DNA of 64,000 bases from assembly GCF_900182985.1 (NCBI RefSeq), contig NZ_FXUY01000002.1, forward strand, positions 436,501 through 500,500. Direction: 5' to 3'. Under the pieces are notes generated by a model. It was not told where the DNA came from, made no database searches, and saw only the letters and a program-made list of their open reading frames with translations. The translations under genes were made by a program, and so were the position numbers. Below, piece after piece: positions 50,815-61,208 of this stretch. How positions within the stretch are numbered: the first letter of the stretch is position 1; the number at the start of each line of letters is the position of its first letter. The DNA comes from Pseudomonas helmanticensis (GTDB lineage: Bacteria; Pseudomonadota; Gammaproteobacteria; Pseudomonadales; Pseudomonadaceae).

Positions 50815-52809
50815 TCAGGGCTCGAGACGGCGCTGCTGGTAGATCCAGTCAACGATCTCGCCGTCGGGGGTGTAGCCGCTGACGGTTTCACGCAGGAGTT
50901 GGCGGACGCGGGAGTAATCATCCTTTTCGACCGCAACCAGCAATTCGCTCAGCCTGGCCTTCAGCACATCCCAAGGCAGGTGATCTTCGTTAGCGGTCAT
51001 GATCATCGGGTGCGGTGTCGCTGCAACGTTGTCGCCGATCAGCAGCTCCTCGTAGAGTTTTTCGCCAGGGCGCAGCCCCGTGAACTCAATGGCAAGATCA
51101 CCCTGTGGATTGCGATCCGAACGAATGCTCAAACCGGAGAGATGAATCATTTTCTCCGCCAGTTCGACGATTTTGACCGGCTCGCCCATATCCAGAACAA
51201 AGACATCACCTCCCTGCCCCATCGAACCGGCCTGGATCACCAGTTGCGCAGCTTCAGGGATGGTCATGAAGTAGCGGGTGATCTTGGGGTGAGTGACTGT
51301 CAGCGGGCCGCCTGATTTGATCTGACTGTGAAACAGCGGAATCACCGAACCGGACGAACCCAGTACGTTACCGAAACGCACCATGGTGAATCGCGTCTTG
51401 TTGACTCGGGAGACGTTGGAACTGTCGCCAAACAATACCGGGGCAATCTCACGGCTCAACGCCTGAAGGGTCAACTCGGCCAGACGCTTGGTACTGCCCA
51501 TGACGTTGGTCGGGCGCACGGCCTTGTCGGTTGAAATCAACACGAAGTTTGACACGCCAGACTGCAATGCCGCCTGGGCAGTATTGAGCGTGCCAATGAC
51601 GTTATTGAGTACACCTTCAGCGATATTGTGCTCGACCATCGGCACATGTTTATAAGCGGCGGCATGGTAGACCGTATCGACCTTCCACGTTTTCATCACG
51701 TCGAGCAGTTTGTCCGGATGACGGATCGAACCGAGGATCGGCAGCAGCTTGACGGGGACCGATTCACGACAGCTACGCTGTTCCAGCTCCGAAAGGATAC
51801 TGTAAAGGTTGAACTCGCTGTGCTCGAACAACAACAGCGTGGTCGGCTCCAGGGAAAAGATCTGCCGGCACAGTTCGGAACCGATCGACCCGCCGGCACC
51901 GGTGACCATGACAATCTTGCCTTTGATGCAGCGCTCCAGCAGATCAGGCTGGGCCGGCACCGCGTCACGCCCAAGCAGGTCGGCAATATCGACTTCCTGG
52001 ATGTCTTCGACCTTCACGCGGCCGCTGGCCAGGTCAGTGAAATTGGGAACACTGCGCACGTGCAGTGGAAAACCTTCAAGCAGATTGAGGATTTCCCGGC
52101 GTCGCGCACGCGTCGAGGACGGTAGCGCGAGGAGAATCTCCTGCGCGCCGGTCATGTCGATCATCTGCTGAATGTGTTTGGGTTTGTAGACCTGAAGCCC
52201 GGAAATCGAGCGATCCGAGATGCCCGGGTCATCATCGATAAAGGCTACCGGGCGCATGACCCGGCCCATACGAAGCGCTGCCACCAACTGATTACCTGCG
52301 ACACCCGCGCCATAAACAGCAACTTTGGTCAGGCCGTCGTCACGATTGGTGAACGGTACATGCTGGGCTGCGGTGAACCAGTCGCCCATGAAGTAATGGC
52401 GCATGCACAGGCGCAGGCCGCCGATGATCACCAGGCTCAGCCACCAGTAATTGAAAATGATCGAGCGCGGTACGACCGCTTCGTGATTGCTGTACCAGTA
52501 CACGACCAGCGCCAGGATCAACGAAGACAAGCTGACCGCCTTGATGATCACCACCAGTGCGTCGTTGCCGAAATAGCGCATGACTGCCCGGTACATGCCA
52601 AACCGGATGAACAGCGGGATGGCAACGATGGGAGCGCAGACGAACAGCCACAGGTGCACTTTGAACGGATTGACCATCTCGTCGATGCCCAGCCGGACGA
52701 TGAACGCCAGCCACAGCGCCAGCCAGACGAGGCCGACATCGGTCAAAACCTGAATCAATCGTTTCTGGCGACGTGGCAATCCCAGCAAGAATTCGCGCAT
52801 TCTGTTCAT
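50815..52809 (-). CDS. wbpM: WbpM-type UDP-GlcNAc C4,C6-dehydratase (membrane bound)
   Basis: A 664-residue protein with four N-terminal membrane helices (about 18-125), a first Rossmann domain (VAVYGAGVAGNQLV) and a second, catalytic SDR domain starting MVTGAGGSIGSELC. The active site reads ISTDKAVRPTNVMGSTKR, with methionine in place of the usual SDR tyrosine, the known WbpM feature. It makes UDP-4-keto-6-deoxy-GlcNAc, the precursor of FucNAc or QuiNAc sugars in O-antigen. The ATG at 52809 (MNRMREFLLGLPRR) aligns with known WbpM starts; 52800 is an alternative. Confidence 0.95.
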   Translation of the reverse strand: MNRMREFLLGLPRRQKRLIQVLTDVGLVWLALWLAFIVRLGIDEMVNPFKVHLWLFVCAPIVAIPLFIRFGMYRAVMRYFGNDALVVIIKAVSLSSLILALVVYWYSNHEAVVPRSIIFNYWWLSLVIIGGLRLCMRHYFMGDWFTAAQHVPFTNRDDGLTKVAVYGAGVAGNQLVAALRMGRVMRPVAFIDDDPGISDRSISGLQVYKPKHIQQMIDMTGAQEILLALPSSTRARRREILNLLEGFPLHVRSVPNFTDLASGRVKVEDIQEVDIADLLGRDAVPAQPDLLERCIKGKIVMVTGAGGSIGSELCRQIFSLEPTTLLLFEHSEFNLYSILSELEQRSCRESVPVKLLPILGSIRHPDKLLDVMKTWKVDTVYHAAAYKHVPMVEHNIAEGVLNNVIGTLNTAQAALQSGVSNFVLISTDKAVRPTNVMGSTKRLAELTLQALSREIAPVLFGDSSNVSRVNKTRFTMVRFGNVLGSSGSVIPLFHSQIKSGGPLTVTHPKITRYFMTIPEAAQLVIQAGSMGQGGDVFVLDMGEPVKIVELAEKMIHLSGLSIRSDRNPQGDLAIEFTGLRPGEKLYEELLIGDNVAATPHPMIMTANEDHLPWDVLKARLSELLVAVEKDDYSRVRQLLRETVSGYTPDGEIVDWIYQQRRLEP

Positions 52810-53165
52810 ACTCCCCTGTACCAATCTGGCCTACTCCCTTGGGTTGAATCGGCGGTTGACATTGTACGGAGGTGAGGGCTTTCGTTACAGAAAAAAGAAC
52901 TGGCCAAGCGCAGCAACTGTCGAAGCATGTAATTTGCGTCAATTACTCAGACCCTAGCAGCGACTTTTCCGTTCAGCCGGGAAAATTTTATCCACTGCCC
53001 GCCACGTGTTACTGCGACTGGTCAGGTGAGCGAGTATACTCTCGGGCGCGTTTGCGACCGGCTCCTGGCCTGTGCGAGCCGTTGGGTAGCTCTGCAAACT
53101 GAGTTCCCCGTCTTACGCGCCAAAGAAATCAACAATCAGAAAGTATAGGGAAGTGAGCACACGTT
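52810..53165. other. Divergent promoter region between wbpM and the gtr-like cassette
   Basis: 356 bp without a gene. TATACT at 53035-53040 on the plus strand is a good -10 hexamer with no clear -35. GGGTAGCTCTGCAAACTGAG from 53085 loosely resembles the start of the JUMPStart element found upstream of polysaccharide operons. The stretch from 52900 to 53000 is AT-rich. No RNA gene seen. Confidence 0.45.
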
Positions 53166-55310
53166 ATGCACACCGGGTTCAGGATAAAGGTAAAGACACT
53201 TACAAAATGGACAGCCCTGGTCGTCATCCTGACACTGGCTCTAACGTGGTTACTACTCAAAAGTCCAATATTAACGCCGACGCTGAAAATCGAAACTCTT
53301 GAATTCCCTGCTGAAAAATCACAGTTATTCTACAAAAGACTTTCACCTTATACCGAGCAAAACTCCTCCTATACAAAACTCGACTCTTCCCGAACAGCGT
53401 TTCAGTTCAGTCTGCCAGTCTATGACGATGACCTGCGATGGGACCCACTCGAAAAAGCAGGGGATTTCTACCTGACATCGGTGAGTATTAACTTGCTGGT
53501 CTACCACTCCGTGGTGTCGATGGAAAATGTAAATCCATCGTTTCAACTTCAAAAGGGCATTCGCAACAACCGTACTTTCTTTATTGCACCAGCTGGTTCA
53601 ACGGACCCCCAGATCTCCATTCACATAGACAGTGCGCATCTCGACAAAGTAAGAGTTGGCATGGCTATTACCTTGGCGGCATTGATTGCACTGGCGATCG
53701 TCATATGGATCAACTGGCACGCGGCCATTCTTGACTATACCCAACGGGAAAGCGGCTGGATCGCACGATTGAAAGGCGCGCTAAAAAAAGACGGTTTCTC
53801 GCCAACCGAGTTTTCAGCGCTGCTGGGCGCGGGGATTTTTCTGAATCTTATTCCCATGAGCCAGTTCTTCCTGTCAGTGGATGACGAGGTGGGTGCCTTT
53901 CGCACAGATCCTTCAGTCTGGATTTCGGACGGACGATGGACTGCGTTCCTGGTAGAAAAGTTTATTTTCCCATTGCCGGTCTTGCCATTTGCTCCGAACC
54001 TGTTTTTTTATATCTGCCTCGCCTTGTCATACATGGTGATATTACGTGCACATAACCTAAAGTTCAGCTGGATCACAACGTTCGCCTACTGTGCATTTGT
54101 CGCACACCCAATCTGGTGGTTCATTGGCGAGTTCTATTCAAACTTGCCATCAACCGGCCTTGGGGTATTGTGCTTATCCATCGCCGTATACATCACATCT
54201 CGTATAAATATTTCCGCTCGATTGTATCGAGGCCAGATACTCCAGTTCGCCAGCGCCAGCTTCTTTCTCTCACTGGCTATTGGCGCCTATCAGTCGCTGG
54301 CAATGTTTTATCTGGTGGTCGCAATCGGTAGCGTCATATTTGCGGCCCGAGACAAGATTAACGAACCACCTACTGCTTTGCTGGTGCTTGTTAAAAGGAT
54401 TGCTGCGCTGGTAACTGTTTTCCTGAGCGGTTTGATTTTATATGCGTTCTTCAACAAGGTCGCGAAGCACTTTTACCCGGTGAATTACGGTTATCTGGAC
54501 AGTTTCCTGAAAATTGATGAGCTACTCGCAAATCCTTTGCAGATCACAAAGCTGACCGTTAATGAGATGTTCAAGATCTATACGGGATCGGTGCAGAGCT
54601 TCGGCGTCAGTTTCTTCATTTCCACGGTGGTCCTTGGCATCGCCACACTGCTTCTGATTACGCAAAAAACGCTGATATCCTCCGCTCGCATGATGCTGTT
54701 TATAGGCGCCCTGCTACTCTCGCCTTTCCTGCTGCATTTTGTCACCGGGGGTTCGTTTCTTCCGATGCGCTCCATGCTGGCAGTGTCTTTCATCACGTGG
54801 CTCAGCGTCATGGTCATTCTTGAAAAACGAGGTGCTCTCCAGGCCTTGGGCCTCATTCTGGTTTCAGTGCTGATCTTCCAGATGGTAACCATCAACAGTC
54901 AGTATGCTGCCAGCACCATTCTGGCGACCACCCACGACCGCCTTACGGCAGAAGCCATCTATGCTCGGATAGCAGAGGTCGACCCTCATTTCGATCGAGA
55001 AGCTCGGGCACCGGTTGATATATATGGCAAGTTTTCCTTCAGTAGCCGATATCCATCTCCCGACTCTTCAACGATGAGCGCTTCGTTCTTCGACTGGGAT
55101 GAAGGCAACGCCAACCGAATGCTCAAATATATGCAGCTGGTCGGTTTCAGCAACGTGTTCACACTCCACCCGACAATTCGTATAGGGCTCACGCCGAAGT
55201 TCAAGGATATGCCGGTCTGGCCCGCGCCTGGTTCTGTTCGCCTGGATAACGGTGTCTACCTGATCAAGCTTTCAGAGAAACCCGATCCGACCCACGCGCA
55301 ATATCAATAG
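53166..55310 (+). CDS. GtrII-like polytopic glycosyltransferase (GT-C type)
   Basis: A 714-residue membrane protein. TM1 spans about 15-32, a roughly 130-residue periplasmic domain follows, TM2 spans about 165-184, and from about 215 there is a run of about nine more helices to 570 and a periplasmic C-terminal tail. SVDDEVGAFRTDPSVWISDG at 237-256 gives the acidic first-loop motif expected of GT-C enzymes, and the layout matches the glucosyltransferase II (GtrII/Glucos_trans_II) family that modifies O-antigen in the periplasm. Base composition is clearly richer in A and T than its neighbours. Specificity is unknown. The cassette of sugar-nucleotide, GtrB and GtrA genes follows. Confidence 0.72.
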   Translation: MHTGFRIKVKTLTKWTALVVILTLALTWLLLKSPILTPTLKIETLEFPAEKSQLFYKRLSPYTEQNSSYTKLDSSRTAFQFSLPVYDDDLRWDPLEKAGDFYLTSVSINLLVYHSVVSMENVNPSFQLQKGIRNNRTFFIAPAGSTDPQISIHIDSAHLDKVRVGMAITLAALIALAIVIWINWHAAILDYTQRESGWIARLKGALKKDGFSPTEFSALLGAGIFLNLIPMSQFFLSVDDEVGAFRTDPSVWISDGRWTAFLVEKFIFPLPVLPFAPNLFFYICLALSYMVILRAHNLKFSWITTFAYCAFVAHPIWWFIGEFYSNLPSTGLGVLCLSIAVYITSRINISARLYRGQILQFASASFFLSLAIGAYQSLAMFYLVVAIGSVIFAARDKINEPPTALLVLVKRIAALVTVFLSGLILYAFFNKVAKHFYPVNYGYLDSFLKIDELLANPLQITKLTVNEMFKIYTGSVQSFGVSFFISTVVLGIATLLLITQKTLISSARMMLFIGALLLSPFLLHFVTGGSFLPMRSMLAVSFITWLSVMVILEKRGALQALGLILVSVLIFQMVTINSQYAASTILATTHDRLTAEAIYARIAEVDPHFDREARAPVDIYGKFSFSSRYPSPDSSTMSASFFDWDEGNANRMLKYMQLVGFSNVFTLHPTIRIGLTPKFKDMPVWPAPGSVRLDNGVYLIKLSEKPDPTHAQYQ

Positions 55311-55367
55311 GCGATCAACGTCCTTCGCGAGCGGAGCTCCCTGGAGCTCCATTCCGGGCAACAGAAT

Positions 55368-55463
55368 ATGCACCTCATTACGTTGAACAACAGGCACTTT
55401 GAGTCATTGCGCGCTACCTACGAACGACGTGGATTGGCCCGACATGCGCGGCAACATCTGTAG
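55368..55463 (+). pseudogene. Possible 31-codon gene remnant
   Basis: A short frame (HLITLNNRHFESLRATYERR and on) lies in the 203-bp gap between the GtrII-like gene and the aminotransferase gene. It looks like a protein N-terminus that ends early, and could be what remains of a gene lost when the cassette was assembled. No ribosome site is evident; it may be chance. Confidence 0.2.
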
Positions 55464-55513
55464 TAACATTTCGCCCATCATCAAGTGCTCCGCCATATAT
55501 TTCTGGATAAATC

Positions 55514-56623
55514 ATGGAAGTGAATCAAACCGTTCCGTTGTTTTCTGCAGCCGCGGCGAACGCAGGCATCGACTTCTCCGAACCCCTGATGCGGGTAGTC
55601 AATCGACACTGGTACATCATGGGCGAGGAGGTCAAAGCCTTTGAGCGCGAATTTTCCGACTATGTAGGCGTTGAGCATTGCATCTCCGTCGCGAATGGCT
55701 CCGAAGCATTGGAGATCGCTTTACTTGCGCTTGGCGTAGGCCCGGGTGATCGTGTCATTACCGTGGCCAATGCCGGTTTCTACAGCAGCACGGCCATTCG
55801 CGCCGTGGGCGCCGAGCCGGTGTATGTCGATGTAAACGAACATTCGCTGACCATGTGCCCCGCTTCTCTGGAAAAAGCGCTGTCCCGGCCGGCCAAAGTC
55901 GTGATCGTCACTCACCTTTATGGTCAACTGGCTGAAATCGAAACGCTTGCCCAAATGGCGAAGGTGGCAGGTGCGGCGGTGCTGGAAGATTGCGCTCAAT
56001 CTCACGGCGCAAGATCATCCGGCGGCCAATGTGGCTCCTTCGGCGATCTGGCCTGCTTCAGCTTTTATCCGACAAAAAATCTCGGGGCTTTGGGCGATGG
56101 CGGGGCAATCGTCACGTCCTCCGTCGAAATTGCCGAACGCTTACGTACGCTGCGCCAGTACGGCTGGTCGACCAAGTATCACGTCACCACAGCCCTTGGC
56201 CGCAACAGCCGTCTCGATGAAATGCAGGCTGCGATTCTTCGCGTCAAGTTGCCTCTGCTGGACCAATGGAATGAACAACGCCGGCATATCGCTCGCCGTT
56301 ATACCCAGGGGCTCAAAGGCCTGCCGGTAACACTTCCGGTCAGCCTGGAAAACGATTTTGTTGCGCACTTGTTCGTCTTGCGTGTAGCGGACAGAGAGGC
56401 CTTTACCCAGTACCTGAAAGAGCACGGCGTCAGCACCGATGTTCATTACCCGGTACCCGATCATTGGCAGACGGCCTACACGTTGACCGAGCAATTCGAC
56501 CTGCCGGTTACCGAGTCGGCGTGCTCTCGCCTCGTGTCCCTGCCTTGCTTCCCAGGGCTGACAGAATCTCAGGTAAACCGCGTCATTGAAGTGGTCAACA
56601 GCTACTTCAAACAGAGGACTTAA
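55514..56623 (+). CDS. DegT/DnrJ/EryC1 sugar aminotransferase (FdtB/QdtB-like)
   Basis: A 369-residue PLP enzyme of the sugar-nucleotide aminotransferase family. The PLP lysine is K188 in FSFYPTKNLGALGDGGAI, the phosphate loop is NGSEAL (61-66) and EDCAQSHGA at 158-166 holds the pyridine-binding aspartate. Such enzymes convert a keto-sugar to an amino-sugar. Next to an FdtA-type isomerase the likely substrate is dTDP-3-keto-6-deoxyhexose, giving a 3-amino-3,6-dideoxyhexose. The next gene starts one base after its stop. Confidence 0.9.
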   Translation: MEVNQTVPLFSAAAANAGIDFSEPLMRVVNRHWYIMGEEVKAFEREFSDYVGVEHCISVANGSEALEIALLALGVGPGDRVITVANAGFYSSTAIRAVGAEPVYVDVNEHSLTMCPASLEKALSRPAKVVIVTHLYGQLAEIETLAQMAKVAGAAVLEDCAQSHGARSSGGQCGSFGDLACFSFYPTKNLGALGDGGAIVTSSVEIAERLRTLRQYGWSTKYHVTTALGRNSRLDEMQAAILRVKLPLLDQWNEQRRHIARRYTQGLKGLPVTLPVSLENDFVAHLFVLRVADREAFTQYLKEHGVSTDVHYPVPDHWQTAYTLTEQFDLPVTESACSRLVSLPCFPGLTESQVNRVIEVVNSYFKQRT

Positions 56624-56624
56624 C

Positions 56625-57560
56625 GTGCTGTCGCTCGTCATTCCGGTCTATCGCAACGAAGAATCACTCCCTTCACTGTTGAAGGCTGTCGACAACTTGA
56701 ATGTCGAGCTTCACGGAGCACTGGAAGTGGTGTTCGTTGTAGATGGCAGCCCGGATCGCTCGTATGAGATTCTGCGCGACAGCCTGCCACTGCAAAATTT
56801 CGCGTCGCAGCTGATTCTATTGTCGAAGAACTTCGGCTCTTTCATGGCGATCAGAACCGGCCTGCAGCACGGTAAAGGCACGACGTTCGCTGTCATGGCT
56901 GCCGACCTGCAGGAACCACCTAGCCTGGTTCTGACCATGAATCGAGTGCTGAATACCGAACCAGTGGATGTTGTCGTAGGCGTGCGAGAAAGCCGTCAGG
57001 ATCCGTTCCTGTCAAAGCTCGCTTCGAAAACATTCTGGGGACTTTATAAGCGCTACGTGATTCCGGAAATGCCGGCCGGCGGCGTCGATATGTTCGGCTG
57101 CAATCTGGAGTTTCGCGACAATCTGTTGAAGCTTGAAGAGCGGCATAGTTCGCTGATCGCCCAGATTTTCTGGCTCGGCTTCCGCCGTCAGATCGTCCAC
57201 TATTCCCGGGTGGCCAGAGAGCACGGGAAATCGGCCTGGACGCTGCGCAAGAAGGTCAATTACCTGATGGATAGCGTCTTCTCGTTTACCGACCTGCCGA
57301 TCCGGTTATTGATCCGGATCGGGGCCGTGGGGTCGGCGCTTTCTGCACTCTATGGATTCAGTGTCGTGCTGGCCAAGCTGGGTGGCCTTATTGACGTGCC
57401 CGGATACGCGATGACCTTGTTCACCATCACGCTGCTGGGCAGCCTGAATCTGCTGGGACTGGGCGTGATCGGTTCGTATGCCTGGCGCACCTATGAAAAT
57501 ACCAAAGGGCGCCCACTGGCGATCCCTATGAAAGTTTCTGAGTTTGGAGCCAATAAATGA
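56625..57560 (+). CDS. GtrB-type polyprenyl-phosphate glycosyltransferase (GT2)
   Basis: A 311-residue enzyme with an N-terminal GT2 domain and two C-terminal membrane helices (about 228-250 and 260-285). [13 protein letters not shown] opens the domain, [10 protein letters not shown] stands at the DxD/DPM1 position, and [20 protein letters not shown] is typical of GtrB/DPM1 enzymes. They transfer a sugar from a nucleotide donor to undecaprenyl phosphate on the cytosolic face. The start is a GTG at 56625 after AGAGGA, one base past the aminotransferase stop. Its stop overlaps the next start as ATGA. Confidence 0.9.
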
Positions 57561-58513
57561 GTGATTCGCGGGATTTTTTCGTTCACGACCGTGCGATTTG
57601 TGAATCGTCCACTATTGGCGCCGGCTCGAGGGTCTGGGCGTTTGCCCATGTGCTGCCGAACGCTCGGATCGGCGCCGAATGCAATATCTGCGACAACGTG
57701 TTCGTCGAGAACGACGTCATCATCGGTGACCGCGTGACACTGAAATGCGGCGTGCAGGTCTGGGACGGCATCACCATTGAGGACGATGTTTTCGTTGGAC
57801 CGAATGTCACATTCACCAACGACAAGTTCCCGCGCAGCAAGGTCTATCCAGAAGCATTCTCCCGAACCATTATTCGTAAAGGTGCCTCTCTGGGCGCCAA
57901 CTCAACGATTCTGCCGGGCATCATCGTTGGCACTTCGGCAATGATCGGCGCAGGCGCAGTGGTCACCAAATCGGTTCCACCCAATGCCATCGTGGTCGGC
58001 AACCCGGCAAAAATCATCGGCTACGTCGATGCCAAGCCTACCGATGGTGCATTGGTGGAAAATCCGGTCAAGGTCGGCAAATCGGATGTCTACCCTTGCG
58101 GCGTCACGCTGCACCGCATGATGGAAGCCGTCGATATGCGCGGCAGCCTGAGTGTCGGCGAATGCGGTAAAGATGTGCCGTTCGAAGTGAAACGTTACTT
58201 TCTGGTAACCAACGTTCCAACGGCAGAAACCCGTGGCGAGCACGCTCACCGCGAATGCCACCAGTTTCTGGTAGCGGTTAAAGGCACAGTACATGTCGTT
58301 GCCGACAACGGTAAGCATCGCCAGGAGTTCGTTCTGGACAACCACACGCTGGGCCTGTTCCTGCCAGCGATGACCTGGGGCATTCAGTACAAGTATTCGG
58401 CGGACGCCGTCCTGCTGGTGTTCGCCTCGGAACACTACATGGCCGACGACTATATCCGTGACTACGATCAGTTCCTGATCGAGAAGAAGCAGCAGGCAGT
58501 TTCGCCAGAATGA
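57557..58513 (+). CDS. Bifunctional acetyltransferase / 3,4-ketoisomerase (WxcM/FdtD-like fusion)
   Basis: A 318-residue fusion. Residues 1-158 form a left-handed beta-helix of hexapeptide repeats with [15 protein letters not shown] (81-95), the pattern of sugar N-acetyltransferases (WbpD/FdtC-like). Residues about 180-312 form a cupin with [16 protein letters not shown] (226-241), the active-site block with H229 and H231 of FdtA/QdtA 3,4-ketoisomerases. Similar fusions are known (Xanthomonas WxcM, Shewanella FdtD). Together with the aminotransferase it should give dTDP-3-acetamido-3,6-dideoxyhexose. ATGA overlaps at both ends imply tight coupling with gtrB-like and gtrA-like genes. Confidence 0.9.
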
Positions 58514-58905
58514 ATCTGAAAAAACTGCTGGAGATCAAGTTTGTCCGGTTTCTTCTGACCGGAGGACTCAACACTGCACTGACCTACGTTCTGTACCTGA
58601 TTTTATTGAGTTTCCTGCCTTATATCTGGAGTTACTCAATCAGCTACGTCTGCGGAATCTTTCTGGCGTTCATGCTCAGCCGTTTCTTCGTATTCAAAGA
58701 ACACCAAGGGATGAAGTCAGCCCTGTTGTTCCCTTTTGTCTATTTGGCGCAGTACGTCCTGGGCGTTATTATTGTCTGGCTGTGGGTCAAGAAGCTGTCA
58801 CTTCCCGAATATCTGGCGCCACTCGCAGCCATTGCACTGACGCTGCCGCTGACCTTTGTGCTGAGCAAGTTGGTGTTTGTGAAGGGTAAAACGCCAGCGC
58901 ATTGA
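58510..58905 (+). CDS. GtrA-family lipid-linked sugar flippase
   Basis: A 131-residue protein with four membrane helices and the GtrA landmarks [20 protein letters not shown] at the N-terminus and [10 protein letters not shown] in the middle. GtrA proteins are thought to move undecaprenyl-phosphate sugars to the periplasm for a Gtr transferase. The ATG overlaps the stop of the fusion gene (ATGA). It ends the cassette before a large palindromic terminator. Confidence 0.92.
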
Positions 58906-58944: not shown

Positions 58945-58998
58945 GACCTGCAGGCATAAAAAAACCCGGCAAGCCGGGTTTTTTTATGCCTGCAGGTC
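58945..58998. terminator. Perfect 26-bp palindrome acting as bidirectional terminator
   Basis: Arms at 58945-58970 and 58973-58998 are perfect inverted copies with a two-base loop. The inner part AAAAAAACCCGGC/GCCGGGTTTTTTT is a symmetrical intrinsic terminator; the outer part GACCTGCAGGCAT extends the stem. It separates the plus-strand cassette from the minus-strand acyltransferase gene and overlaps the latter's stop codon. Confidence 0.9.
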
Positions 58999-60091
58999 AG
59001 GCTGTTTTTTCAAGCACCACCGGTGCCGAGAACTTCTTTTTGAACTGCATCGCCGGCTTTTCAATGTACCGCCACGAGAACCACGCCAAGCCCATGGAAA
59101 GCACACTGGCGGCAATCGCCAACCACCAGCCGTTGATCGACTTGTGGGAGATCGACACCAGCGCTTGCTGGATCGGGAAGGCGAAGAGATAGGTGCCATA
59201 AGATAGGTCGCCGAGCTTGCGCATGCCGTCTACGCAGACAGGACGACGATAAGCCAGGTACATCAGCAAGTACGGCAGCGCAATGAACAGCGCCAGGTTG
59301 GTATAACCAAATCGCGAGCCGATCAACAGTACAACCAGACACATTGCTGCGATGCTGCCTTTGAATGGCACGATGTCCTTGTACTTCCAGAGGAAGGTAC
59401 CGACCAGGAACATCAGACCGAAACGCAGAACCGGCAATACTTCAGTCGTACCGAAAAACGTGATTGGTGCGATGGGGCCGTGGAAAAACAACCAGACAAA
59501 GAACGCCGAAATCAACGCCATTACCGGTACAACCAGTGAAAAGGTTCTACGTCCGACGAAGAAAATCGCGGCCAGCGCTACATAGCAAAACGCTTCGATC
59601 GGGATCGTCCACAACGAACCGTTCACCGTCTGCGGATAGGTAACATCCATGAAGACGCCAGGCAGTACGAACGCTGTCTGATACGGAATCGAATTGGTCA
59701 GATAACGATAGGTGCCGGAGTTCTGGAAATACTCACCAAGCGGCAGCGCGGTGAAAACAGGGCCCAATATCAATGCAGAAACGAACGAAGTGACCGCCAG
59801 TGCCGGGATAATGCGCAAGGCGCGTGCCTGCCAATATTCCGTGAACGTACGGCGCTCCAATGAACCCGCAATCAGAAAACCACTGATCGCAAAAAAAGCG
59901 CTGACCGCCAGGCTTCCCGGTTCATACCCCATAAACAGGGAATACCAGGTTGCCGGCGATTTTCCCGTGAGCGCAAAGCTATGGGTAATCAAGACGACCA
60001 AGGCCGCGCACAATCTGAGCAAGTCAAAATTGTTGGCGCGAAGCTTTACCATGTCGCCAAGTGTTGTTGTTGGCTTTTTAATATCGATCAT
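58997..60091 (-). CDS. Acyltransferase 3 family protein (OafA-like O-acyltransferase)
   Basis: A 364-residue membrane protein with about ten helices. The N-terminus NNFDLLRLCAALVVLITHSF is the classic acyltransferase-3 motif with the catalytic histidine, and FFAISGFLIAGSLERRTFTE follows. It acetylates sugars of O-antigen or exopolysaccharide with a periplasmic acceptor. An alternative start (MVKLRANNFD) lies 13 codons in. It belongs to the minus-strand O-antigen block, upstream of the cassette boundary. Confidence 0.9.
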   Translation of the reverse strand: MIDIKKPTTTLGDMVKLRANNFDLLRLCAALVVLITHSFALTGKSPATWYSLFMGYEPGSLAVSAFFAISGFLIAGSLERRTFTEYWQARALRIIPALAVTSFVSALILGPVFTALPLGEYFQNSGTYRYLTNSIPYQTAFVLPGVFMDVTYPQTVNGSLWTIPIEAFCYVALAAIFFVGRRTFSLVVPVMALISAFFVWLFFHGPIAPITFFGTTEVLPVLRFGLMFLVGTFLWKYKDIVPFKGSIAAMCLVVLLIGSRFGYTNLALFIALPYLLMYLAYRRPVCVDGMRKLGDLSYGTYLFAFPIQQALVSISHKSINGWWLAIAASVLSMGLAWFSWRYIEKPAMQFKKKFSAPVVLEKTA

Positions 60092-60197: not shown

Positions 60198-61208
60198 CTA
60201 CTCCGCCTTTCCTGCCTGGTACTTGAAGGCAAGAAACACCAAAGGAGCATAAGCAAGGATGAGCCCCGCCACCCCGTCCAGCCATAATCGGCTGACGCAT
60301 ACGGCAATCGGCAGCAACCACAGCAAATTGATCAACCCCACTGTAACCGTGACGGGCCAATGCTGGGCATATCGACGCGAAGCAAACTGATAGGCATGAC
60401 TGCGGTGAGCCTCATAAACCTTCTCGCCGCGAAGCAGCCGGCGCAGGAGCGTAAACGTTGCGTCGACGATGAAAACACCCAGCAGGATCAGCCATCCCCA
60501 AAACAGCTCGAATGACACCCAGCTGGCCGCAAGCGCGAGAATGCCCAGAATAAGACCAAGAAACCCGCTGCCGGCATCGCCCATGAAGATCCGCGCCTTC
60601 GGGAAATTCCAGACCAGGAATCCGCCCACAGCGGCAGCGAGCAATAGAGTCGACCCAATCAACGGGGCATCGGCGCCTAACGCGTACAGCAGGCATGCAC
60701 CCAGGCAAACCGTGACCGCCTCGACACCGGCGATCCCGTCGATACCATCCATGAAGTTATAGAGGTTGAGCATCCATACGAGATAAAAAGCCGCCAATGC
60801 CGACCCGACCCAGCCCAGATTGACCACTTGGCCAAATGCATGAATCGGCGGCAAGCCTCCCAACCAATAGAGTGCCCATGCAGCCGCGGCGAAATGCCCC
60901 AAGAGCCGCCAACGTGCAGCGATGTGGCCATGATCATCCATGAAGCCAATAATTGCGACCAAAGCGCCGGCTCCCATCGCCGAGACAAACAGTCCTGTGG
61001 GGATCAACTCCCCTACAAACAACAGACAAAGCGCGGCCAGAAAAGTGACCACGATCGCCACGCCTCCGCCCCTCGGGGTCGGAATAGTGTGAGAACTCCG
61101 GTCGTTGGGAATATCGATAAGGCTTTTGGACAAGGCATAGCGGCGCAAGAGCGCCGTTAAAATGAAGGCACTGGCGAAAACCACTGGCACAAGCCAAACG
61201 CTACTCAT
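60198..61208 (-). CDS. wbpL: WbpL/WecA-type undecaprenyl-phosphate sugar-1-phosphate transferase
   Basis: A 336-residue polytopic protein of the MraY/WecA (GT4 PNPT) family with about eleven helices. DIPNDRSSHTIPTPRGGGVA at 32-51, IGFMDDHGHI with the DD pair, LYNFMDGIDGIAG and NFPKARIFMGDAGSGFLG are the active-site loops. It starts O-antigen synthesis by transferring a HexNAc-1-phosphate, probably FucNAc or QuiNAc made from the WbpM product, to undecaprenyl phosphate. It is 106 bp upstream of the acyltransferase gene on the same strand. Confidence 0.93.
   Translation of the reverse strand: MSSVWLVPVVFASAFILTALLRRYALSKSLIDIPNDRSSHTIPTPRGGGVAIVVTFLAALCLLFVGELIPTGLFVSAMGAGALVAIIGFMDDHGHIAARWRLLGHFAAAAWALYWLGGLPPIHAFGQVVNLGWVGSALAAFYLVWMLNLYNFMDGIDGIAGVEAVTVCLGACLLYALGADAPLIGSTLLLAAAVGGFLVWNFPKARIFMGDAGSGFLGLILGILALAASWVSFELFWGWLILLGVFIVDATFTLLRRLLRGEKVYEAHRSHAYQFASRRYAQHWPVTVTVGLINLLWLLPIAVCVSRLWLDGVAGLILAYAPLVFLAFKYQAGKAE

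Follow-up and report, generated by a model that had tools for sequence, protein, structure and literature searches.

The 64-kb stretch of the Pseudomonas helmanticensis genome analysed here (G000:C2:436501-500500, within a genome of 6.53 Mb; hereafter the window) contains a five-gene cassette that we read, with a probability of roughly three in four, as a self-contained, gtr-type system of three components for periplasmic glycosylation, donor-sugar pathway included. Such a system would make Fuc3NAc, a 3-acetamido-3,6-dideoxyhexose, linked to undecaprenyl phosphate (Und-P-Fuc3NAc), flip it and add it to a rhamnose-type O-antigen exported by an ATP-binding cassette (ABC) transporter. We infer the enzymatic steps, the sugar, the acceptor and the linkage from gene content and order, the predicted core fold of the GT-C glycosyltransferase, the membership of GtrB in a distinct group and the co-occurrence of this GtrB type with FdtA. 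Two points are new here: the FdtA-associated GtrB group has a changed metal-site motif, and a four-gene block is conserved while its GT-C partner varies in place and family.

The initial annotation of the window had listed five plus-strand genes, and open reading frames and profile matches bear out their families and joins (Table 1). The gtr trio is present together (PF04138, PF00535/phrog_841 and PF14264), and both domains of the fusion protein, the N-terminal hexapeptide domain and the C-terminal FdtA domain, lie in one chain. The aminotransferase gene ends with TAA at 56621-56623 and is followed, after a 1-bp gap, by the GTG start of GtrB at 56625, while ATGA overlaps at 57557 (GtrB/fusion) and 58510 (fusion/gtrA) join the remainder; 203 bp lie between the GT-C gene and this four-gene block. 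The G+C content is 0.492 for the GT-C gene and 0.485 for gtrA, 0.552-0.567 for the aminotransferase, GtrB and fusion genes and 0.590 for the window.

Table 1. Genes of the cassette and features at its borders, in positions of the window
Feature	Position	Strand	Evidence
GtrII-like GT-C membrane transferase, 714 aa	53166..55310	+	PF14264 124 bits (cut-off 30)
DegT/FdtB-type sugar aminotransferase, 369 aa	55514..56623	+	PF01041 349 bits; QdtB 3frk 288 bits among solved relatives
GtrB-type polyprenyl-phosphate glycosyltransferase, 311 aa, GTG start	56625..57560	+	PF00535; GtrB-like in PHROGs (phrog_841); GtrBSyn 5ekp 150 bits
FdtD/WxcM-like fusion, 318 aa: N-terminal hexapeptide acetyltransferase and C-terminal FdtA 3,4-ketoisomerase	57557..58513	+	PF00132 and PF05523 (166 bits)
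GtrA flippase, 131 aa	58510..58905	+	PF04138 78 bits; ATGA overlap
24-bp perfect inverted repeat with A7...T7 runs	58947-58970 / 58973-58996	.	read by eye from the sequence
wbpM-like dehydratase, left edge of insertion spot	50815..52824	-	PF02719 409 bits
Acyltransferase, right edge	58997-60091	-	PF01757
wbpL-like, right edge	60198-61208	-	PF00953

In the proposed pathway, RmlA and RmlB would provide dTDP-4-keto-6-deoxyglucose, which the C-terminal domain of the fusion would isomerise to the 3-keto sugar; amination by the DegT protein and acetylation by the N-terminal domain of the fusion would then yield dTDP-Fuc3NAc. GtrB, as a member of a donor-specific group, would move Fuc3NAc onto undecaprenyl phosphate, GtrA would flip the product, and the GtrII-like GT-C protein would attach the sugar, on the periplasmic side, as a branch of the O-polysaccharide that the adjacent Wzm/Wzt ABC transporter exports, probably a rhamnose polymer. 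By comparison, the gtr-type mechanism proposed earlier for the cassette appears well supported, and the union of a gtr trio with a dTDP-3-acetamido-3,6-dideoxyhexose pathway that the initial annotation had claimed stands, as the GtrB type tracks genomes with FdtA, the fusion matches the solved FdtD-type protein 4mzu and the GT-C core fits.

The distinct nature of this GtrB is seen in a maximum-likelihood tree of 92 sequences. Here, one group (support 100/100) unites 56 GtrB proteins linked to the FdtD-type fusion, which come from Pseudomonadota, Acidobacteriota, Actinomycetota and Myxococcota. Four further linked GtrBs, of Chloroflexota and Geobacter origin, join two unlinked ones, L119 and L124, at 98/85, and all 62 sequences come together at 100/98. 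Owing to L119 and L124, the FdtD-linked label requires two changes on this tree. The phage GtrBs of SfII, SfV and epsilon34 fall outside the 62-member group, as do the generic GtrBs of our class sample.

Members of this group have a changed DxD motif. In GtrBSyn, UDP is bridged to 94-DxD-96 by a divalent cation, and activity is lost when key donor-site and acceptor-site residues are mutated (PMC4728340). The window GtrB has A92-A-D94-L-Q in place of this motif, so that the first aspartate is not kept. The same position is alanine (57) or serine (4) in all 61 distinct FdtD-linked sequences scoring at least 350 bits, the window included. Among the 33 sequences of 240-350 bits it is aspartate in 31 and serine in two, namely L119 and L124; two of the aspartate sequences (L047, L043) are second GtrB-like genes within FdtD loci. 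Below 240 bits, where most of the 23 sequences are other GT2 proteins and the alignment is doubtful, aspartate was found in 22 and alanine in one. The residues D96, R122, D157 and R200 of GtrBSyn correspond to D94, R121, D155 and R198 of the window protein, and their equivalents are kept in 63 of 63 linked sequences, two of which are repeats of the window's own gene. In total, 23 positions separate linked from other sequences, including N11, A92, E97, G152-G153-V154, F157 and W287.

This GtrB type travels with FdtA. Among 298 Pseudomonas genomes, searched with E-values up to 1e-50 for GtrB and up to 1e-60 for FdtD-like proteins, 29 have a GtrB of the window type, 30 an FdtD-like protein and 26 both; the two matches lie within about 60 bp of each other in 25 of these 26, the exception being G622, and four genomes (G037, G537, G575, G618) possess FdtD without window-type GtrB. 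The motif AADLQ is present in 28 of the 29 GtrBs, while the gene of G637 is in two pieces and its motif was unread. The FdtA family PF05523 was found in 86 of 296 Pseudomonas genomes, with more than 100 bits in 69, and these 69 include all 29 genomes with window-type GtrB. Three of the 29 (G069, G033, G007) lack the fusion at the threshold employed. In G069, fdtA, an acetyltransferase gene (60% identical to the N-terminal domain of the fusion) and an aminotransferase gene stand in a row, about 9-11 kb from GtrB; in G033, an FdtA gene (in an open frame of 330 aa), an aminotransferase gene and a stretch resembling an acetyltransferase (31% identity) lie about 11-15 kb from GtrB. In G007, fdtA and the aminotransferase gene are on another contig than GtrB, and the short piece of sequence examined showed no acetyltransferase. 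The usual place of the fusion between GtrB and GtrA in G069 (L171 6122-6916) reads by eye like a transposase remnant, with what we take to be an IS30-like motif.

A wider class search gave GtrB matches in 132 of 369 genomes, and we examined the 29 top-scoring ones, leaving out the window's own. All six genomes whose best GtrB is of the window type (G276, G316, G208, G277; G277 was typed by 57% identity, its motif not being visible) or of the serine type (G250, G465) contain FdtA, as against none of the 23 with a GtrB of the aspartate type. These co-occurrence figures, which leave the relatedness of the genomes aside, are good evidence that the window GtrB type would use an FdtA-derived sugar.

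As to which sugar this might be, the initial annotation had named Fuc3NAc or Qui3NAc, and this choice can be narrowed: judged from sequence, Fuc3NAc is more likely, because the nearest solved relative of the fusion is an FdtD-type protein from Shewanella. For this Shewanella protein an inversion at C-4 has reportedly been found. An unchanged mechanism with Qui3NAc or another N-acyl-3-amino-3,6-dideoxyhexose in place of Fuc3NAc is unlikely, yet parts of the comparison favour it. FdtA and QdtA belong to one family, QdtB is among the best-scoring solved aminotransferases, and the C-terminal domain of the fusion, which also matches FdtA 2pa7, has glycine where 2pa7 has histidine after an aligned tryptophan. 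However, 4mzu shares this glycine and is matched far more strongly than QdtA, with 395 bits over both domains (residues 9-307 of 318) and with 165.8 bits against about 77-83 for QdtA in the C-terminal domain. The FucNAc branches of the Xanthomonas relatives discussed below argue against Qui3NAc as well.

The proposed periplasmic transfer of Fuc3NAc calls for a fitting transferase and acceptor. In the model of the GtrII-like protein, a transmembrane helix, a beta domain (about 39-153) and a second transmembrane helix precede a GT-C core (about 207-714) that aligns with OST, PMT, AftD, ALG12 and ArnT and would fit a transferase of lipid-linked sugars. D239 and D240 are invariant and E241 is nearly so. 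The beta domain is probably periplasmic; this domain (window 53280-53625) has weak fold matches only and seems to be missing in shorter relatives of 518-559 aa.

The neighbours of the cassette on both sides are O-antigen genes of the minus strand. Their coordinates and strands confirm its annotated position between wbpM and the acyltransferase and wbpL genes. The locus runs on past the window with genes for Wzt (with Wzt_C), Wzm, two GT2 proteins, an epimerase-family protein, RmlA, RmlD and RmlB, as far as an acyltransferase gene and rpsA. The rmlA and rmlB genes lie about 7-10 kb past the window edge; rmlC is located elsewhere in the genome, outside the locus. A second rmlA/rmlB pair was found outside the locus as well, at G000:C1:3487434-3489443. 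This gene content fits an ABC-exported, rhamnose-containing O-polysaccharide, and likewise fits a supply of dTDP-4-keto-6-deoxyglucose to backbone and branch alike. Still, the acceptor might be another surface glycan or a glycoprotein, which we regard as improbable. It is from the neighbourhood that we derive the acceptor, and a set of GtrB, GtrA and membrane protein in G007 (L170) has non-glycan neighbours. On the other hand, the cassettes of the window, L177 and L178 all adjoin wbpM and wbpL, and the Xanthomonas precedent is an O-antigen.

A wbpM match at the DNA level is present in 196 of 199 Pseudomonas genomes. The spot beside it is variable, because in the relative G047 (L185) the wbpM and wbpL matches are about 240 bp apart with no cassette match between them. 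The cassette is found at the same spot in G519, as a single 13.7-kb match of 90% identity, and in G036 with about 84% identity. In this near relative G036 (L178, G036:C1:4621496-4622449) the FdtD match contains one in-frame TAG in an otherwise full cassette. G019 (L183 3010-4755) has a different gene, of 581 aa, between wbpM and wbpL, which again suggests a variable site. At the right border of the window cassette, the inverted repeat is likely to terminate transcription of both gtrA and the acyltransferase gene, which converge there; a terminator scan for loops of 3-8 bases did not list this stem, whose loop lies outside that range.

On a wider scale, we surveyed the best 80 of 193 FdtD-like loci. 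The order aminotransferase-GtrB-FdtD-GtrA occurs in 36 of the 80; in a further 22 a GtrB match of more than 300 bits lies close by but in a different arrangement, 16 contain FdtD and the aminotransferase without GtrB, and six are of other types. Spacing inside the block is near constant in most loci, with L022 (GtrB in two pieces) and L042 as exceptions. Occurring in this order in 36 loci, across phyla, and with the 26 genomes that possess both proteins, the four-gene arrangement is more than chance. The conserved co-occurrence in order that the initial annotation had proposed as a check holds for these four genes, but not for the fifth, as the GT-C gene changes place and family. A GtrII-family gene lies within 6 kb in 13 of the 36 block loci, and either such a gene or another large protein with at least eight hydrophobic segments in 31; the large membrane protein gene is upstream of the block in some loci and downstream in others. 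Ten large membrane proteins picked by hand comprised one each of PMT_2, DUF2142, YfhO and DUF6056 and six without a family. This pattern suggests one donor module with exchangeable transferases, if the partner proteins are indeed transferases.

Several loci depart from this picture in detail. The cassette looks broken in L023 and L188 (Pseudomonas baetica / G526), where the aminotransferase match is split in two and the adjoining GtrII-like match is weak (145 bits) and on the opposite strand. L021 and L179 (P. siliginis / G628) have tandem GtrII-family genes before the block, the second of which scores much lower. In L047 (12045-16200; P. crudilactis), a second gtr-type module with an aspartate-type GtrB, GtrA and a large membrane protein follows the Fuc3NAc-type cassette.

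The loci without GtrB bear on a further scenario, in which a cytosolic enzyme puts the amino sugar into the backbone and the gtr trio, next to the pathway by coincidence, decorates with the amino sugar or something else. These 16 loci show that FdtD can occur without GtrB, and several of them have a downstream gene with 10-12 predicted transmembrane helices that may encode Wzx. Nevertheless, we deem such a coincidence highly improbable, since GtrB and GtrA are coupled to FdtD across phyla and the GtrB and FdtD genes are close neighbours in nearly all Pseudomonas genomes that have both.

Our cassette resembles the gtrA-gtrB-gtr(type) cassettes of phages (Shigella SfII and SfV, Salmonella epsilon34), in which a specific transferase accompanies GtrA and GtrB; the SfII transferase is related to the window's. 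The donor of the phage cassettes is UDP-glucose. In contrast to the window cassette, they are phage-borne, lack a sugar pathway, have aspartate at the first DxD position and fall into a separate GtrB group. The order differs as well, with gtrA-gtrB-gtr uninterrupted in phages and GT-C, aminotransferase, GtrB, FdtD and GtrA here. In a phage search limited to the fusion gene, none of 50,697 records covered it to 80%, with 38 partial matches. Ordinary glucosylation, with GtrB using UDP-glucose and the aminotransferase and fusion serving an unrelated cytosolic pathway, would agree with the families of GtrA, GtrB and GtrII but is very hard to reconcile with the separate GtrB group, its changed donor-site motif and the presence of FdtA, in the genomes examined, with the window-type but not with the aspartate-type GtrB.

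A comparable arrangement is the arn operon, in which a donor pathway with an aminotransferase (ArnB), an ArnC-type GT2, a flippase and a GT-C protein (ArnT) stand together, though for UDP-L-Ara4FN and lipid A, unlike the window cassette. A GT2 gene beside a DegT gene in L001 of the window's genome, a presumed ArnC by its position, keeps the aspartate in DxD, in contrast to the window GtrB. The three-component pentofuranose system of Citrobacter youngae likewise decorates an exported O-polysaccharide by means of a lipid-linked donor, a flippase and a GT-C protein and has extra donor-making genes, but its accessible description concerns pentofuranoses and a donor made from phosphoribosyl pyrophosphate (PRPP) by an unrelated enzyme (PMC11127046). 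In Pseudomonas donghuensis, GtrA, GtrB and GtrII affect the O-antigen; this system was read as glucosylation, and the word aminotransferase is absent from the available text of the paper (PMC8509367).

The closest counterpart is found in Xanthomonas, and the supposition in the initial annotation that the combination was undescribed does not hold: wxcK-L-M-N-O is the same set, with lipopolysaccharide data from mutants (PMC4878081, PMC12573098). Mutants in wxcK and wxcN of Xanthomonas campestris pv. campestris (Xcc) B100 lose the FucNAc branches, keep the rhamnan and contain more rhamnose; in the wxcN mutant traces of FucNAc are left, and the authors allow for polar effects (Steffens et al., 2016; PMC4878081). 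In X. hortorum, the genes wxcK-wxcL-wxcM-wxcN-wxcO are listed in a row as transaminase, glycosyltransferase, bifunctional acetyltransferase/isomerase, 'sugar transferase' and 'sugar translocase', and in the same report of 2025 Fuc3NAc branches were proposed as the primary receptor of a phage (PMC12573098). By this published gene list, wxc region 3 (LPS3) has aminotransferase, glycosyltransferase, fusion and small membrane protein (wxcN, so described in PMC4878081) in the order of the window and, likewise, a large membrane protein gene beside the block; however, this gene lies 3' in X. hortorum, whereas it lies 5' and belongs to the GtrII family here. The product of wxcO is given as an integral membrane protein of 750 aa, and a different gene takes its place in two other Xcc strains (PMC2238763). 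As proxies for Xanthomonas, the likeness to wxc itself being by description, the Stenotrophomonas loci L050 and L054 carry the four-gene block with identities to the window proteins of 51-52% (aminotransferase), 55-57% (GtrB), 66-67% (FdtD) and 48-54% (GtrA). A review of 2019 states that wxc region 3 'indicates a distinct biosynthetic mechanism', a mechanism that its accessible part leaves unnamed (PMC8042644). In the accessible parts of the open-access literature, we found neither an assignment of wxc genes to a GtrA/GtrB/GT-C mechanism nor a mention of the changed DxD motif.

We consider it rather probable, at a lower level than our reading of the cassette itself, that the FdtD-linked GtrBs represent distinct Und-P-Fuc3NAc synthases of several phyla. 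They would accept a dTDP- instead of a UDP-sugar through a rebuilt donor site, marked by A/S-x-D and by further near-fixed changes, for example at positions 11, 97, 152-154, 157 and 287. Together with the aminotransferase, FdtD and GtrA they would form a portable supply module for interchangeable GT-C transferases and thereby for many serotypes, with wxc region 3 working alike. The cassette and its comparison give the mechanism behind the FucNAc branches of Xanthomonas a concrete form that can be tested gene by gene, with an Und-P-linked donor, a flip by GtrA and transfer by a GT-C protein. In addition, A/S-x-D may serve as a short signature by which to predict whether a GtrB-like enzyme loads a 3-amino-dideoxy sugar or glucose. 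Such a signature would aid the reading of surface-glycan loci and of phage host ranges.

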